Of a stretch of DNA of 28,274 bases, positions 3,398-22,562 are shown one piece after another; position 1 is the stretch's first letter, and the number at the start of each line of letters is the position of its first letter. The DNA lies in the IMG/VR virus record IMGVR_UViG_3300050821_011666, positions 1-28,274 of that record; one strand, written 5' to 3'. The DNA is from a virus. Both the position numbers and the translations under genes were made by a program. The notes under the pieces were generated by a model. The model made no database searches and was not told where the DNA came from. It saw nothing but the letters and a program-made list of their open reading frames with translations.

Positions 3398-3673
3398 ATG
3401 CACACACCACTACCGCCCGGTTGTAGACGCTGCAAGTCGGCGGCATTCGTAGAAAGCTCGACCGGCGGCGCCGAACGATGCCAGTGCGCGCGCGGCCGGC
3501 GACTATTCGAACTGGATCAGGAACGAAAGGCAGGGAGGTCGGTGGCTCCGGGATCGCCCGCGAGCGCAGCAAGGCGGCGAGCTGCTGGCCGGGTGCGCAG
3601 CGGCAAGGATGCCGCGAAGGCCGCGGCCAACGACAAAGAGCAGGAGTTGTTCGGCAAGGAGACGGAAGGATGA
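3398..3673 (+). CDS. small basic protein with N-terminal Cys motif
   Basis: A 91-residue protein. The N-terminus carries CRRC (residues 9-12) and CQC (28-30), spaced like a small zinc ribbon, followed by a basic Ala/Arg/Lys-rich tail. It ends in an ATGA overlap with the cupin-like gene. It could be a nucleic-acid-binding zinc ribbon, but the function is unknown. Confidence 0.55.
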   Translation: MHTPLPPGCRRCKSAAFVESSTGGAERCQCARGRRLFELDQERKAGRSVAPGSPASAARRRAAGRVRSGKDAAKAAANDKEQELFGKETEG

Positions 3674-4167
3674 TCACGTGCATGCTTTCGCGCTTGTTTG
3701 GCGAGCCAGAGGAAATTAATGGAAGGAACCGCTGCCCGACGTACCTATACCGTTGGTTCCTGATTCGCACTCGCTGGTTCAAAGTCTATCTGCATAAGTT
3801 TGTCGCCGACGATTGGTCGCTCGATCTTCACGACCACCCGAAACGGTTCATCAGCATCGGACTGAAGGGCTCTTATATCGAATACACGCCAGACTGCTCT
3901 GTCGTTGGGCTTGGCGAGAAGTTCGAGATATTTAACGCTCCATGGGTCCGGTCGTTCCCGGCGGAGCACATTCACCGGATCACGATGGTTCGGTCCGGTG
4001 GGGCTAACGGCGTCCCGGAAAAGATTCACGCTTGCTGGACTCTTTGCATTGTGCTCCGCGGCAGCCGCGAATGGGGATTCTGGCACCTTGGAGAATTCAT
4101 ACCGTGGCTCAAATACGTACAGGGACACGCAGGCATTGCCGACAAGATGAAAGCGTGCAGCGAATGA
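3670..4167 (+). CDS. cupin-like phage protein
   Basis: A 165-residue protein. The ATG at 3670 is chosen because it has AAGGAG eight bases upstream and overlaps the previous stop (ATGA); a longer in-frame start at 3478 would run through that gene. The centre has a LHDHP motif (His54, His56) followed by a beta-strand series, then AEHIHRI (His100, His102) and a final strand pair (CWTLCIVLRGSREWGFW). Paired histidines on successive strands are typical of a metal-binding cupin barrel. Similar small cupin-like proteins of unknown substrate recur in phage genomes. I infer a metal site but cannot name a reaction. Confidence 0.6.
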   Translation: MITCMLSRLFGEPEEINGRNRCPTYLYRWFLIRTRWFKVYLHKFVADDWSLDLHDHPKRFISIGLKGSYIEYTPDCSVVGLGEKFEIFNAPWVRSFPAEHIHRITMVRSGGANGVPEKIHACWTLCIVLRGSREWGFWHLGEFIPWLKYVQGHAGIADKMKACSE

Positions 4168-5297: not shown

Positions 5298-5888
5298 GTG
5301 AGCTTCCGTCGCGTCTGGGTACAAGGTCTTGGCCGTCTGCTGTCGCGCCACGAACTGAGGCAACTTCGCTCGGTCTGGGATGCCGTGCCGCACGTGCGCT
5401 GCAAGGGCCTGTGCGCCGCGGCCTGCAAGCAGGTCCCGCTTTTTCCCGTAGAAGCATTCTTCCTGATCGAGAAGCGTGGAGCCGAGATAGAACCCGGAAC
5501 GCATCCGGCAACTCTGTCGAAGCGCGGCAATGCAGGCAATGGCGAGTACTTCATGGCACCGACGCTCGGAGCAGGCAAACCATGCCAGTTCCTCAAAGAG
5601 GACCGCTGCTCGATCTACGAGGACCGCCCGCTCATCTGCCGCCTTTACGGCCATCCGGTCGGAACCCTGCCTTGCAAGTATGGCTGCATCGTGAAAAACC
5701 CGCTCGATCCACTGCGCCTGGGCGAACTAATGATGCGCGTGGTCCGCATCCTGAATCCGGCAGTTTCGAAGGAGCCGAAGACGCAGGACGATTTCCGTCT
5801 GGGATTCGACGCTCTCTATCGCCAGTGGGACGATATGACGATTCTGGCGGAGGAAGATGAGGAGGCAACCGATCATGGCATTTGTTAA
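5298..5888 (+). CDS. YkgJ-type cysteine cluster protein
   Basis: A 196-residue protein starting at GTG 5298, immediately after the previous stop. Cysteines 35, 39 and 43 are followed by the hallmark segment CQFLKEDRCSIYEDRPLICRLYG (Cys96, 104, 114) and CKYGC (126, 130). This is the pattern of the YkgJ / zinc- or iron-chelating CxxxCxxC family (UPF0153-like). The family is thought to bind a metal or Fe-S cluster, and its phage role is unknown. The first Cys group is slightly more widely spaced than usual. The C-terminus overlaps the next gene by 14 bases. Confidence 0.75.
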   Translation: MSFRRVWVQGLGRLLSRHELRQLRSVWDAVPHVRCKGLCAAACKQVPLFPVEAFFLIEKRGAEIEPGTHPATLSKRGNAGNGEYFMAPTLGAGKPCQFLKEDRCSIYEDRPLICRLYGHPVGTLPCKYGCIVKNPLDPLRLGELMMRVVRILNPAVSKEPKTQDDFRLGFDALYRQWDDMTILAEEDEEATDHGIC

Positions 5889-6285: not shown

Positions 6286-6405
6286 ATGAGCGCGGAAATC
6301 AGAACCATCAGGGAAGAGAATAACGGAAACGGCGACGGCGATTCGCTCGCCATCCGCGAAGTGACGATCGAGAACGTAAATCTGTTCCGGCGTGCTCTGA
6401 AGTAA
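6286..6405 (+). CDS. 39-residue small protein
   Basis: A short frame (MSAEIRTIREENNGNG… to …VNLFRRALK) begins six bases after the preceding gene, with GAGGGA about ten bases ahead of the ATG. It is hydrophilic with a short C-terminal helix. The spacing and ribosome binding site are the only support. No family is recognised. Confidence 0.4.
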   Translation: MSAEIRTIREENNGNGDGDSLAIREVTIENVNLFRRALK

Positions 6406-6409
6406 ACCC

Positions 6410-6440
6410 CTGGCCCCCGATTTCAGGCCAGAACATTTCT
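6410..6440 (+). terminator. possible terminator of the early operon
   Basis: CTGGCC (6410-6415) and GGCCAG (6426-6431) form a GC-rich stem four bases after the last early stop, followed by a T-rich but interrupted stretch. The rest of the 6406-6576 gap holds a second short hairpin (CACCTTT/AAAGGTG at 6478-6496) and no convincing gene or promoter. Confidence 0.4.
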
Positions 6441-6576
6441 ATATTTCAATGGTTTAGTGATATCGTAAGCGTCAGTACACCTTTTCACTAAAGGTGAGCG
6501 GTACGGGCCGCTATCGACAGAACTGGCTGTCTGAAACAACGCTCCCAGATCCCGGTTCACCGCTCCTGCTCTATCC

Positions 6577-6891
6577 ATGTTCAAAATTAAGTTCAAGCAT
6601 CGAGTCGCGGTTTATCGCCGCCATTCCGATTCCGTCTATCACGTCGCGCCGGCAGCCGCCGAGCACTTGCTGGCTTCCGGCCTCGCCACCGTTCGCCAGA
6701 AGGCGGCCAAGGTCATCGCGGAGATCGAGTTGACGGATGCCGCGACCGGTTACCAGCAAGGCCAGGTTGGCGCTGACCAGCTGGGCCTGCGGCCGGGTTC
6801 GTTCGGCATCCGAGTGGAGGATTTGCCATGCGGGCTTTGGTGTTACGACCACAGGAATGCATGGCATAAAGTGGCAGCCGCGCAAACATGA
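6577..6891 (+). CDS. hypothetical protein opening the lysis-type module
   Basis: A 104-residue protein beginning MFKIKFKHRVAVYRRHSDSVYHVAP, which reads as a beta hairpin followed by an Ala-rich helix (AEHLLASGLATVRQKAAKVI). No ribosome binding site is visible, so the start is uncertain. It ends in an ATGA overlap with the membrane protein gene, which supports it. Function unknown. Confidence 0.55.
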   Translation: MFKIKFKHRVAVYRRHSDSVYHVAPAAAEHLLASGLATVRQKAAKVIAEIELTDAATGYQQGQVGADQLGLRPGSFGIRVEDLPCGLWCYDHRNAWHKVAAAQT

Positions 6892-7613
6892 AAGTATTAC
6901 TTCTGTCGCTGATCGCACTGCTGCCGCTGATCGTACTGCTGGCGGCCGACAAGCCCGATGCTGCCCTTGTCAAAACTCTTCGGGATAAGGTCGCAAGCCA
7001 GGATCGAACCATCAGCGATCTGTCGGCGCAGTTGGATCGTTCCCGCTTTCAGGCCGACGGACGCGTGCAGGCGATGAAGGCAGCAGGCGATTCGCTGAAC
7101 CGTACGCTTCAATCCCAGTTGGATCAGGCTCGAACTGAAACCTATACCGCTCGAACCGTAAGTGCGAGCAAGGATGTCGTCATTCAGGAGTTGACCGCGG
7201 AACTGCGCAAAACCCAGTCGGATACTTCAACGAATGCTGTCGCTGCGGCTGTCCAGGATACGGCACTGAAGACTGCAGTAAAAGTCGCCAGCGTTCGTCA
7301 CGCGCAGGATGCGGCCGATCTGAAGGCGGGCATCTCGCTTGCCAGTGTGGCCGCGGCAAACTCTCAGCAGTCCGCGGAACTCAGTGCATCGAACAGCAAG
7401 GAGTTGCTGACGGCGACACGAGAGATCGCGCGGCTCACTGGCATCATTCAGGAAAACAACTTTACCGAGATGTGGGGCTGGCGGCTGATGGCGATCCTGG
7501 GTGCCGTAGTACTCGCTCAAACTATCGTCACTCTGCTTATGTTCTGGCAGTTGTATCGTATCGTGCGGCAGGAAAGCACGCTGATTTGTCCCTTGCCACA
7601 TTCGCAGCCTTAG
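6888..7613 (+). CDS. coiled-coil protein with a membrane segment at each end
   Basis: A 241-residue protein. Residues 1-19 are strongly hydrophobic (LLLSLIALLPLIVLLAA), either a signal anchor or a transmembrane helix. Residues 25-185 are a long Ala/Gln/Thr-rich helical region likely to be a coiled coil. A second transmembrane helix lies around residues 200-225 (RLMAILGAVVLAQTIVTLLMFW). The shape recalls a unimolecular spanin, but there is no lipobox cysteine, so that is not shown. It stands a few genes before a cell-wall hydrolase, so a lysis or envelope role is plausible. A host-independent structural role cannot be excluded. Confidence 0.6.
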   Translation: MKVLLLSLIALLPLIVLLAADKPDAALVKTLRDKVASQDRTISDLSAQLDRSRFQADGRVQAMKAAGDSLNRTLQSQLDQARTETYTARTVSASKDVVIQELTAELRKTQSDTSTNAVAAAVQDTALKTAVKVASVRHAQDAADLKAGISLASVAAANSQQSAELSASNSKELLTATREIARLTGIIQENNFTEMWGWRLMAILGAVVLAQTIVTLLMFWQLYRIVRQESTLICPLPHSQP

Positions 7614-16756: not shown

Positions 16757-17962
16757 ATGGACGAAAAGTTAAAGGCTCTACAGGCCGAACTCAAATCGTA
16801 CTTCGAAAAGGCTGCTGAGCAACAGAAGGCGCACGGCACCGTTTCCGAAGAACTCAAAACCAAGATCGACGCGCTCCAGAAACAGGTGGACGCGATCGAC
16901 ACAAAGCTCGCCGGCCATATGCCTGGCGCGCCCGAAGAAGATTCGTTCGAAAAGCAGATGACGGAAGACGAATCCGTTAAGCGTCTGCTGAAAGACAAGC
17001 GCGGCAATGCGGTGATCAACTTCACCGGGAAGGCCGCGCGCGCGCCATTTGAGCGCAAGACGACAATCACGGACGTGGCTGTCGGAACCGCAACGTCGGG
17101 CGTTTTGCCGATCCAGCGGCTTCCCGACATCACGATGGAAGCGCGCCAGCAATTGACGGTGCGCGACCTTCTGACGGCGACTCCGACCACCTTCCAGGTG
17201 ATCGACTTCGTCAAGGTCAATGCGCCGATGGCGATTGCCTCGCCCGTTGCTGAGGCCGGCACGAAGCCAGAAAATGCGGTCACGTTCACGACAGTGTCGG
17301 AACGCGTGAAAACCATCGCCACCTGGGTCCCGGCTTCCCGGCAGGTGCTCGATGACATGAGCGAGTTGCTCACGTTCATCAAAACGATGATGCCGTATTA
17401 TGTGAACTTGGCGGAAGAGTTGCAGCTCTTGTCCGGTGACAACATCGGCGAGGACCTCCATGGGCTCATTCCACAGGCCAGCGCATTCACCACAGGGCTC
17501 CTCATCCTCGCCAAAGGCTGGAACAAGATCGATATCATCGGTCGCGCCATCCAGCAGATCACCAGTGCGAAGGAACTGCCTCCGAGTTTTCTGATACTTC
17601 ACCCGAGCGACTGGTGGGATATCCGGTTGACCAAGGACGGTTTCGGGCGCTACATCCTCGGCGACCCGCAGCAGGGTTCGCTGGCCGGTGTCGGGTTCGG
17701 AGTCATGAACCCAGGACAAAATCTTTTCGGTCTGGCTGTCTGCCCGACGACCAATATCGCCCAGGGCACGTTTTTGGTCGGCACCGGCAACCCGATCGCT
17801 TGCGAGATCCGGGACCGCATGGAAATGCAGATCGACATTTCGACCGAGCACAGCACATTTTTCACGCAGAACTTGGTGGCCATACGGGCAGAAAAACGGC
17901 TCGCACTCATCACGCGCAGGCCGGCATCGTTCGTGACTGGGACCTTCAACACTTCACCGTAA
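16757..17962 (+). CDS. major capsid protein (HK97 fold)
   Basis: A 401-residue protein with AGGAGAAG and an A-rich leader before the ATG, as expected for a highly expressed gene. Residues 1-55 are a predicted coiled coil (KLKALQAELKSYFEKAAEQQ…TKIDALQKQVDAIDTKL), corresponding to the delta/scaffold domain. The HK97 fold then follows, with the usual E-loop/spine pattern (VAEAGTKPENAVTFTTVSERVKTIATWVPASRQVLDD) and the A-domain (PPSFLILHPSDWWDIRLTKD). The C-terminus (STFFTQNLVAIRAEKRLALITRRPASFVTG) is typical of the HK97 superfamily. The neighbouring protease probably removes the N-terminus. Confidence 0.93.
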   Translation: MDEKLKALQAELKSYFEKAAEQQKAHGTVSEELKTKIDALQKQVDAIDTKLAGHMPGAPEEDSFEKQMTEDESVKRLLKDKRGNAVINFTGKAARAPFERKTTITDVAVGTATSGVLPIQRLPDITMEARQQLTVRDLLTATPTTFQVIDFVKVNAPMAIASPVAEAGTKPENAVTFTTVSERVKTIATWVPASRQVLDDMSELLTFIKTMMPYYVNLAEELQLLSGDNIGEDLHGLIPQASAFTTGLLILAKGWNKIDIIGRAIQQITSAKELPPSFLILHPSDWWDIRLTKDGFGRYILGDPQQGSLAGVGFGVMNPGQNLFGLAVCPTTNIAQGTFLVGTGNPIACEIRDRMEMQIDISTEHSTFFTQNLVAIRAEKRLALITRRPASFVTGTFNTSP

Positions 17963-17972
17963 AAAACAGTTT

Positions 17973-18009
17973 CGGGGAGCGACAACTAAGCCGCTCCCCG
18001 ATCCTTTTT
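17973..18009 (+). terminator. rho-independent terminator after the capsid gene
   Basis: CGGGGAGCG (17973-17981) pairs perfectly with CGCTCCCCG (17992-18000) around a 10-base loop and is followed by ATCCTTTTT. The stop codon of the capsid gene lies only about ten bases upstream. It would end or attenuate transcription between capsid and the following genes. It opens a 284-bp non-coding gap (17963-18246). Confidence 0.85.
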
Positions 18010-18024
18010 GTCCCATAGGGACCC

Positions 18025-18099
18025 TTACCTCGCCACGCCCAGCCGTACCGAACCATGCCAGGCCACGCCGAGCCCAGCCTCGCCACGACTTACCTTGCC
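18025..18099 (+). repeat. 75-bp array of fifteen pentamers (NNRCC)
   Basis: From 18025 the sequence divides into fifteen consecutive 5-base units: TTACC, TCGCC, ACGCC, CAGCC, GTACC, GAACC, ATGCC, AGGCC, ACGCC, GAGCC, CAGCC, TCGCC, ACGAC, TTACC and TTGCC. Fourteen of the fifteen units fit NN(G/A)CC; only positions 3-5 are constant while the first two vary freely. A 5-base period cannot encode a simple protein repeat. It lies between the capsid terminator and a palindrome. No coding frame here is convincing. Function unknown. Confidence 0.85.
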
Positions 18100-18114
18100 G
18101 TTACACAGTGTAAC
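18100..18114 (+). promoter_or_regulatory. perfect 15-bp palindrome GTTACAC-A-GTGTAAC
   Basis: GTTACAC (18100-18106) and GTGTAAC (18108-18114) are exact inverted repeats around one base, starting at the base after the pentamer array. The GTTACA/TGTAAC half-sites also make the inverted pair upstream of terS (10448-10464), with a different centre length. It is likely a protein-binding site. Confidence 0.65.
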
Positions 18115-18171
18115 CAAAAAACTCAACCAGAAAGGAGGCGCGGAAGATAGCCAGAGCAAATCGTTCGGATG

Positions 18172-18211
18172 CAGCCTGTTCGGAGCACTCCTGGCGGGGA
18201 GGAGCAGGCTG
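18172..18211 (+). promoter_or_regulatory. two-part hairpin in the leader before 18247
   Basis: CAGCCTG (18172-18178) pairs with CAGGCTG (18205-18211), and inside it CTCCT (18188-18192) pairs with AGGAG (18200-18204). A strong AAAGGAGG stands earlier, around 18131-18138, but no usual start codon is placed to use it. The structure may control translation or transcription of the next gene. The latter has no clear ribosome binding site of its own. Confidence 0.4.
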
Positions 18212-18246
18212 TCCCGGACGAACGACGTTCTTCGCGCTTTTGACAT

Positions 18247-18588
18247 ATGAGACTTATAGTGATCAGCCAGCAACTAACTGGTGAGTATGGAACGGTCGTC
18301 GCCGGCCAGGAGTTCGACTGCGACGATGCCGCGGCGTATCAACTCGTGACTGCGGGGATGGCCCGCAAGGCGGCGCCGCCCGCGGTGCGATACGAAACCA
18401 AGGTGATCGTGCCGGAAGCGCCCGAGGTGCGCGCGCGGGAGATGTTTCGTCACCTGCCTGTGTCTGACGCGGAACCGGCGACAGTGGCTTCCGAGGGCGA
18501 TCGCATGCTTTCAGCAACAGACCCATCGCCACGCGGAGCTGCTGATTCTGGCGGACGGAGAGGACGTCCGGGACCTGCTTCCCGATGA
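18247..18588 (+). CDS. small post-capsid protein
   Basis: A 113-residue frame. The first roughly 40 residues (MRLIVISQQLTGEYGTVVAGQEFDCDDAAAYQLVTAGMARKA) match the layout of short phage proteins that often follow the capsid gene: two strands, then a D-D-x-x-A-x-x-L-V-x-A-G-x-A helix. After about residue 65 the sequence becomes Arg/Gly/Ser/Pro-rich and overlaps, out of frame, the start of the glycosyltransferase. The natural end may therefore have been earlier, before a frameshift. The start lacks a clear ribosome binding site. Confidence 0.6.
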   Translation: MRLIVISQQLTGEYGTVVAGQEFDCDDAAAYQLVTAGMARKAAPPAVRYETKVIVPEAPEVRAREMFRHLPVSDAEPATVASEGDRMLSATDPSPRGAADSGGRRGRPGPASR

Positions 18589-20704: not shown

Positions 20705-21163
20705 ATGAAACTCAATCTTGGGTGCTCGGACAGGCACATTCCAGGCTTCGTATCCGTCGATATCGTGGAGCCAGCCGACCAGCTTGTGGATCTCGCCGGC
20801 CTATGGCCTTGGGCAGACTCGACCATCGAAGCAGTCAGGGCACACGACGTTATCGAGCACATCGCAGATCGTATCCACTTCATGAACGAGCTGCACCGTG
20901 TGCTTCAGCCAGGTGGGAAGGCCACTATCGAGACGCCGAATGCGGCGCACGGGGCGGGATACTTTCAGGACCCGACGCATAAGTCTCCGTGGTGCCTCAA
21001 TTCGTTCCAGTACTTCGAGGTTGGTTCGTTCGCTCACAATCGGCTGGCCAAGGCGTACGGAATCAGAGCGGCGTTCCGAGTGGTTTCGCTCTGCGAGCGG
21101 TCATACCAGGATGTTCACGAGCCGGTTTGGAAGATCGAGGCAATTCTTGAGGCCGTGAAGTGA
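20705..21163 (+). CDS. class I SAM-dependent methyltransferase
   Basis: A 152-residue methyltransferase with AAGGG ahead of the ATG. Motif I is KLNLGCSDRHIPGFVSVD (residues 2-19, Asp19 for the SAM ribose). DVIEHI (48-53) and VLQPGG (66-71) are the usual motifs of the Methyltransf_11-type fold. The length is short, so only the Rossmann core and a small C-terminal part are present. Similar enzymes in glycan clusters methylate sugars or carry out related surface chemistry. Its GTGA overlap with the next gene ties it to the island. Confidence 0.8.
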   Translation: MKLNLGCSDRHIPGFVSVDIVEPADQLVDLAGLWPWADSTIEAVRAHDVIEHIADRIHFMNELHRVLQPGGKATIETPNAAHGAGYFQDPTHKSPWCLNSFQYFEVGSFAHNRLAKAYGIRAAFRVVSLCERSYQDVHEPVWKIEAILEAVK

Positions 21164-21879
21164 TCACCGTTTACACTGTCATCGTCAACGATTACGACAA
21201 CCTGCGCATGCACGGTCCGGCATCCGGGGATACTCGGTTCATCTGCTTCACGGACCGCCCGCGGCATGTCCATGGCTGGGAAATGCAGGCCTTTCCGCAG
21301 GTACTCAGCGATAACAAGAACTCACGGATTCCGAAGTGTCTGCCCCACCTGCTGCTCGATTCCGAGTTTTCCATCTATGTCGACGGCGCGTTTCGGGTTG
21401 ACCGAGATCCAATCTTTGCAATGCAAATGCTCGGCTCGGCCGATCTTGCGCTGTTCCGCCATCCTGGCGGGCACACTTCGATTCACGACGAACGTAATTT
21501 TTACCAAACACTTCACGGCTACGTGCCTGACGACGTCGAAGCGCAGTATCAAACTTATGTTGCAGGCGGACTGCCGACCACGGGGGAATTTTGGGCGGGA
21601 GGCTTTGTAGTAAGGCGCCACACGGCCGCGATCGAACGATTTAACGAACTATGGTTTCGGGAGTACCTGGCAGGATCGGCCAATGATCAATTTGCGCTTT
21701 ATGCGGCGGTCGTGAAAAGCGGAGTCAAAGTGGCTACCATCGACGGCGTGGTCACGCTCGACAGGCGCTTCCCTTACATGCTGCATGCAAACACCGGCTG
21801 CGCGGACAACCCGCAGTATGAAAAGGAAAACGAGCTGTGGGCTTCCCGGCGCCGACGGCTTGCGGATCTGATTCAATGA
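21160..21879 (+). CDS. glycosyltransferase-like protein (DUF616/TOD1-like)
   Basis: A 239-residue protein from GTG 21160, overlapping the methyltransferase stop. It opens ITVYTVIVNDYDNLR, then ICFTDRP, SRIPKCLPHLLLDSEFSIYVDGAF and HPGGHTSIHDERNFY. It has a GEFWAGGFVVRRHTAAIERFNELWFREYLAGSANDQFAL segment, a pattern seen in DUF616/TOD1/MUCI70-like glycosyltransferase-fold proteins. The YVDGAF stretch provides a D-x-D-like acidic site. It probably acts on a nucleotide sugar; donor and acceptor are unknown. Confidence 0.65.
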   Translation: MITVYTVIVNDYDNLRMHGPASGDTRFICFTDRPRHVHGWEMQAFPQVLSDNKNSRIPKCLPHLLLDSEFSIYVDGAFRVDRDPIFAMQMLGSADLALFRHPGGHTSIHDERNFYQTLHGYVPDDVEAQYQTYVAGGLPTTGEFWAGGFVVRRHTAAIERFNELWFREYLAGSANDQFALYAAVVKSGVKVATIDGVVTLDRRFPYMLHANTGCADNPQYEKENELWASRRRRLADLIQ

Positions 21880-22562
21880 TCAGCGTCGTTATTTCGAGCC
21901 GGTTGGCATCTAACCTGGTTCCGTGCATCGAGTCGGTGCGGTGTCGGGAACCGGCACTAAGAATCATCGTTGTCGACGACGGCCTCGACTTGTCCGAAGG
22001 GGACGCGAAGAGCAAAACCGAGTGCTTCTTATGCGATACGGATCCCGCTCTGCGCGTGGCAGGCGGTAAGCCGTTCGTCTATGCGCGGAACTGCAATATC
22101 GGCATTCGGGCCGCAGGCGACGACGATGTGATTCTGCTGAACGACGACGCGCTGCTGCGGACGCCGAACGGCTTTTCGCAGATGCAGACGATCACGAACA
22201 TTCATGAGGAGTGGGGGATTATCTCCGCGACCACAAACGTGGTCGGGAATCCCGCCCAGCAACAGCACGTCGGCAGAGGTTTGCGCGACGAGCCGAGAGC
22301 GGTGGCCTTCGTGTGCGTGCTCATTCCGAGGCGAACCATCGAGCGCGTTGGCCTGCTCGACGAGGACTTCACCGCCTATGGTTGGGAGGACAACGATTAC
22401 TGCAGACGCGTGCGCCATGCGGGGCTGAAGATCGGCATTTTCGACGGGTGTTACGTCGACCATGGTTCTCTGCAAAGCACCTTCCGCGGGGATCCGCGGT
22501 CTGCCGGCGACATTCGTGCGGGAGCCGAGATTTACAAATCGAAGTGGGGCGATCTCGCATAG
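21876..22562 (+). CDS. GT2 family glycosyltransferase
   Basis: A 228-residue GT-A fold enzyme starting at ATG 21876 (overlaps the previous stop). Strand-loop VVDDG (32-36) binds the nucleotide and LLNDDALL (87-94) is the metal motif. A late acidic motif, DEDFTAYGWEDNDYCRR (Glu171, Asp172, Asp174), is the usual catalytic-base region of GT2 rhamnosyl- or galactosyltransferase-like enzymes. There is no membrane segment, so it acts in the cytoplasm on a soluble or lipid-linked acceptor, or on a protein. Confidence 0.85.
   Translation: MISVVISSRLASNLVPCIESVRCREPALRIIVVDDGLDLSEGDAKSKTECFLCDTDPALRVAGGKPFVYARNCNIGIRAAGDDDVILLNDDALLRTPNGFSQMQTITNIHEEWGIISATTNVVGNPAQQQHVGRGLRDEPRAVAFVCVLIPRRTIERVGLLDEDFTAYGWEDNDYCRRVRHAGLKIGIFDGCYVDHGSLQSTFRGDPRSAGDIRAGAEIYKSKWGDLA

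Follow-up and report, generated by a model that had tools for sequence, protein, structure and literature searches.

The Viral Interference Programmable Repeat (VIPR) system, which consists of a Vipr protein and a vrRNA, has been studied by experiment in Escherichia phage SUSP1 and in a Pseudomonas fulva prophage (PMC13142463). The phage-encoded Vipr proteins are RAMP proteins, and the vrRNAs that they use comprise 9–16 tandem units, with a conserved GGY and hypervariable NN letters, followed by an invariable structured 3′ tail; double-stranded DNA is recognised through the NN letters in 1-nt-skip fashion, the skipped nucleotide being in most cases a codon wobble position, and the targets are mostly competing phages and satellites (PMC13142463). 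A vrRNA is transcribed as an RNA of ~100 nt, which co-purifies with Vipr (PMC13142463). VIPR resembles the crRNA of class 1 CRISPR–Cas, with its Cas7-type RAMP backbone, in that RAMP proteins line a guide RNA and pairing is interrupted periodically, and the authors of that study proposed VIPR as the ancestor of class 1 CRISPR (PMC13142463).

The DNA analysed here (the window) comprises the 28,274 bases of a virus record and encodes a large terminase, portal, protease and HK97-type major capsid protein, followed by glycosyltransferases, a connector and tail genes. The major capsid protein gene (phrog_10) occupies 16757–17962 on the plus strand, and a pentamer array sits in the spacer between it and the next gene, which begins at 18247. 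On the plus strand, positions 18025–18099 hold 15 NNRCC units (TTACC TCGCC ACGCC CAGCC GTACC GAACC ATGCC AGGCC ACGCC GAGCC CAGCC TCGCC ACGAC TTACC TTGCC), with CC in 14 of the 15 and G or A at position 3 in every one; the sole unit lacking CC, ACGAC at 18085, reads GTCGT on the minus strand and has lost its GG. Phased at period 5, RCC reaches a window maximum of 14 of 15 units, compared to 4–6 in 30 dinucleotide-preserving shuffles, and Tandem Repeats Finder does not call the array because the NN letters differ between units. Read on the minus strand, the same positions become (GGYNN)15, with GG in 14 units, Y in all 15 and varied NN letters (5′ to 3′: AA AA GT GA TG TC GT CT AT TC AC TG GT GA AA). 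The minus strand, with GGYNN as its unit, is the informative one, which the original prediction overlooked, and the variable letters are the message, i.e. a guide code. The view already taken there, that the period is maintained by selection and not slippage, is judged to be right.

Other repeat systems were also considered. A CRISPR array, with identical direct repeats of ~25–40 bp and spacers, is ruled out, as only pentamer units are present; the window contains no CRISPR repeats, no cas gene was found among the window proteins scanned, and the VIPR code, unlike that of class 1 CRISPR–Cas, is non-contiguous. The RNA targets of TRAP are NAG triplets with 2-nt spacers, and the window is alike in that its RNA would repeat every five bases, a fixed triplet being combined with two free letters; TRAP, however, uses a different triplet and a ring protein, has no guide function, and the window offers no trp context, so that a TRAP-type RNA target was dropped once VIPR was found. 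Elsewhere in the window, a period-6/11 repeat at 2301–2354 was examined as a further GGYNN array and rejected as not of that kind, and a 33-bp tandem repeat of 3.8 copies at 2088–2211, within the replication-initiation gene, may represent iterons of the origin.

Downstream of the array on the minus strand come GGGTCCCTATGGGAC, a 15-nt hairpin of five pairs (GGGUCCC-UAU-GGGAC; 18010–18024), and then a predicted intrinsic terminator at 17972–18001, with a 12-pair stem and a T-rich tail, which is probably the 3′ end of the RNA. As far as can be read from the sequence, array, hairpin and terminator are arranged like the parts of a small RNA whose transcription runs leftward, toward the capsid gene. 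Because the informative strand is the minus strand, the palindrome GTTACACAGTGTAAC at 18100–18114 lies on the 5′ side of this transcript, directly 5′ of the guide, where it may be an operator or promoter element; no consensus sigma-70 promoter was found for the minus-strand RNA. No Rfam family reached its gathering score, the sub-threshold match being to sroE at 16.7 bits against a cut-off of 51.

The tail hairpin is common to several phages. When IMG/VR was searched for GGGTCCC preceded by four GGYNN units, a query derived in part from the window, ten stretches were returned, among which the real arrays with this tail, besides the window's twin, were L174/L175 (one record), L176, L177, L178 and L181. 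The GGGAC half of the hairpin, which was outside the search pattern, follows its own loop at all of these tail places except that of L174. Vipr is encoded in the records of L174/L175, L176, L177 and L178, and none was found in the record of L181. A covariance model built from L176–L178 alone, with the window left out, matched the window at 18039–18010 with 43.2 bits (E=6e-10); all pairs are maintained in 8 sequences, with one compensatory change, from U–A to C–G, in the second tail of L177. The last unit of arrays carrying this tail is nearly always AA, GA or AT (in few arrays), and may belong to the handle. The window shares both the tail hairpin and the GGYNN grammar with the vrRNAs of L176, L177 and L178, but these arrays are multi-guide and adjoin a vipr gene, and the window array differs from them in both respects.

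The association of such arrays with Vipr was examined in loci chosen by array alone, IMG/VR being scanned for (NNGCC)7 and 120 loci being taken among the matches listed. The reference was ALH47069 of SUSP1, a protein equated with Vipr on the basis of the locus description in PMC13142463; its family, phrog_4652, is annotated as of ‘unknown function’. A homologue was detected by HMM in 82 of these 120 array-selected loci (among the IMG/VR matches listed), the median distance from vipr to the nearest array was 33 bp, and 293 of 301 arrays read GGYNN on the strand of vipr; the same HMM found no match in the scanned loci outside the array set, which were mainly capsid relatives. The expectation that arrays of this kind occur in other phages is thereby borne out, as they recur widely beside Vipr genes. 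As in SUSP1 and the P. fulva prophage, the window has phage-borne GGY/NN repeats with a structured 3′ tail, and its 15 units fall within the published range of 9–16 (PMC13142463); given its sequence grammar, which is that of the published vrRNAs and of the Vipr-adjacent arrays, and its shared tail, we regard its membership of the vrRNA class as established by sequence. It differs from these two systems in being one solitary vrRNA, antisense behind a capsid gene, with neither a Vipr nor a Vap gene in the record, and in its tail, which reads as the short GGGUCCC–GGGAC hairpin with a terminator after it and no apparent pseudoknot.

BLASTN of the window spacer gave a weak match (E=0.3), located on the array, in Gordonia phage ODay; the place matched is a gap free of annotation that contains pentamer arrays and adjoins a gene with a score of 1e-48 against phrog_4652. 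In ODay (MW534375, 10343–11150; about 4910–5075 of L172) the arrays are next to gene 19, which is homologous to phrog_4652 (Vipr), is annotated as hypothetical and is located between the tail chaperone and tape measure genes. The family was also matched in the control genomes of Caulobacter vibrioides and Thermotoga maritima. At positions 6311–7010 of another locus (L009), about 140 GGYNN-type units stand beside a Vipr gene, far above the published 9–16 per vrRNA, and this run is perhaps a staggered array.

For comparison of the surroundings, 15 viral loci were retrieved with the window's capsid protein. One of these (L128), an all but identical stretch from the same virus, carries the array; no array follows the capsid gene in the other capsid-protein relatives. 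In L131, L133 and L134 a short spacer without array separates the capsid gene from the next gene, and the terminator hairpin is present after the capsid gene of L133. Since L133 keeps this hairpin, the array and the next ~130 bp constitute an insertion between the hairpin and the next gene, and the array-free spacers of the three relatives bear out the earlier suggestion that the array had arrived at this place. It had also been proposed that an array occurring only here, without conserved position, would be incidental; among close relatives it does occur only here, but ‘incidental’ does not follow, because the array class is widespread and common beside Vipr genes. The remainder of the insertion (18115–18246, plus strand), which is likewise absent from the relatives, folds as a long stem-loop when read as plus-strand RNA (z-score −3.5, against −0.5 for the minus strand); it may act as a structured leader for the gene at 18247, and may or may not belong to the VIPR element. 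The window also carries auxiliary genes at 3478–4164, 5298–5885 and 20705–22559, encoding a cysteine-dioxygenase-like protein (phrog_4786), a CxxCxxCC metal-chelating protein (PF03692), and a methyltransferase-like and two glycosyltransferase-like proteins, the last three of which are encoded among the structural genes.

The best 1-nt-skip site for the guide within the window itself lies in the capsid gene, at 17819–17862 on the plus strand, with 21 of 30 letters over the 15 units, and the skips coincide with the wobble positions of the codons for ...QIDISTEHSTFF. Skips of 0, 2 and 3 gave at best 17, 18 and 19 letters, respectively, in the window, where 21/30 was reached by 18 of 2000 permuted guides. 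At the homologous place in the capsid genes of L149, L150 and L151, which share ancestry and encode capsid proteins about 30% identical to that of the window, the eleven 5′ units (a cut chosen post hoc) are matched exactly, 22/22 letters, with skips again on wobble positions; the L151 site reads GTC GAG ATC AGC ACC GAG CAC TCG ACG TTC TT. The four 3′ units have no match in these three capsid genes, and the full 15-unit score there is 22–23/30, which is ordinary for a 1.5-Mb search space. The same eleven units in reversed order found no match in the same collection, and permuted 11-unit guides reached 15–18/22 letters in 1 Mb. No exact 12-unit target was found in viral contigs, and no exact 10–11-unit targets in the bacterial genome collection. 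When 247 other guides were decoded against 1.5 Mb of fetched loci there was no 1-nt-skip excess, which is unsurprising because the search space is small, and this result serves as background. Three of the eleven units are mismatched by the window's own capsid gene (ATC for GTx, TCG for AGx and AGC for TCx), which at this site encodes isoleucine in place of valine and draws its serine codons from the other family; with only 8 of the 11 matched, it is a poor target. Judged from these matches, the target of the array is probably the capsid gene of other phages. In its putative 1-nt-skip pairing with another phage's gene, the skips being at wobble positions, the guide resembles those of VIPR, although the predicted target is a capsid gene here and a satellite or lysogeny regulator there.

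Considering these observations together, it is highly likely that the array serves as the guide in a single VIPR vrRNA on the minus strand, the NN letters of which are probably aimed at the capsid gene of rival phages. It would be an unlikely but not extravagant coincidence if this were a vrRNA whose true target lies outside the collections and whose capsid match is fortuitous: the full-length score is of an ordinary size and the 3′ units are unmatched, yet eleven contiguous, mismatch-free and codon-phased units recur in three contigs, at a site homologous to the window's own best site, and neither the reversed nor the permuted guides do as well. A relic, i.e. an inserted guide that has fallen out of use and is drifting with no effector, would fit a solitary array in a record lacking Vipr and the unit GTCGT with its lost GG; we consider this distinctly improbable, as GG is kept in the other 14 units and Y in all 15, the tail hairpin and terminator are intact, and the record is apparently incomplete.

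Readings in which the array has a role other than as a guide fare less well. The original prediction had offered a binding track for a packing or capsid protein and a recombination hot spot between modules, and the position of the array, adjoining the capsid gene and at the edge of an insertion, is what such a DNA element might suggest. Such arrays are, however, found elsewhere beside vipr and on its strand, the conserved tail and terminator are strand-specific, and close relatives have no array at this place, which leaves a DNA element of either sort very improbable; the accompanying idea that CC faces alternate sides of the helix is likewise wrong or unsupported. A role in late-leader RNA, also suggested, is at odds with the coding strand of the array, which runs opposite to the late leader. 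Chance or low-complexity sequence has nothing in its favour beyond a GC content of 59%, was already refuted by the shuffles, and in view of the tail match can be practically dismissed.

The 28,274-base record yielded no homologue of Vipr in searches by phmmer, HMM, profile–profile comparison (hhalign) and PHROG, and none was found in the window's relatives. The record apparently is incomplete: because it ends within tail genes, and tape measure, fibre, lysis and integration genes were not found in it, the absence of Vipr is weak evidence, and the profile used may miss other Vipr types. What is claimed for the window is the vrRNA alone and not a complete VIPR system. An open reading frame at 317–985 with an apparent beta-strand pattern was considered as a divergent Vipr and rejected, having no profile support and no relatives. 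A similar search for divergent Vipr near arrays without a recognised one gave weak matches, the best at 15.7% probability (L093). For 23 array-bearing records with no Vipr in the fetched locus, the whole record was found to contain one in 4 and none in 19. Records of this kind without recognisable Vipr (L011, L030, L036, L066, L086, L100, L104, L118, L120 and others) could harbour solitary vrRNAs or other types of Vipr; some of their arrays are low-complexity or inside open reading frames, and in L036, L066 and L100 solitary-looking arrays precede a terminator-like hairpin. Guides lacking an effector gene may be a wider phenomenon, and Vipr types outside the profile used could also explain such arrays.

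A mechanism can be proposed on this basis. A single vrRNA would be transcribed leftward on the minus strand, from near 18100 to the terminator at about 17970, and several Vipr (RAMP-like) subunits would bind its GGY motifs and present the NN letters, which would pair with DNA of the form NNxNNx..., where x are codon wobble positions. The eleven 5′ units spell the conserved V-[DE]-[IM]-S-T-[DE]-[HQ]-S-T-F-F codons of HK97-type major capsid genes, so that a competing phage sharing the cell would have its capsid gene blocked by the loaded complex, and codon differences in the phage's own capsid gene would provide self-avoidance. Vipr itself might be encoded in the unsequenced part of the phage, or be supplied by the host or a co-resident element. 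The proposal builds on the repeat grammar, tail homology, terminator, insertion and target match, all read from the sequence, while transcription, Vipr loading, DNA binding, repression, self-avoidance and the source of Vipr are the steps that we infer. More tentatively, and at rather long odds, solitary vrRNAs may travel without vipr, parked in a structural-gene spacer, and use the Vipr of a host or co-resident prophage against capsid codons of rivals that are spelled differently in their own gene.

The VIPR identity accounts for a class of cryptic pentamer arrays that is common in phage metagenomes, and the tail family shared by several phages makes vrRNAs findable by sequence alone. ODay, a cultured SEA-PHAGES phage, is a ready laboratory model. 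The window offers an example of a guide without an effector gene in the available record, and the target predicted for it, at conserved codons in the C-terminal part of the major capsid gene, is concrete enough to be testable by one reporter assay.
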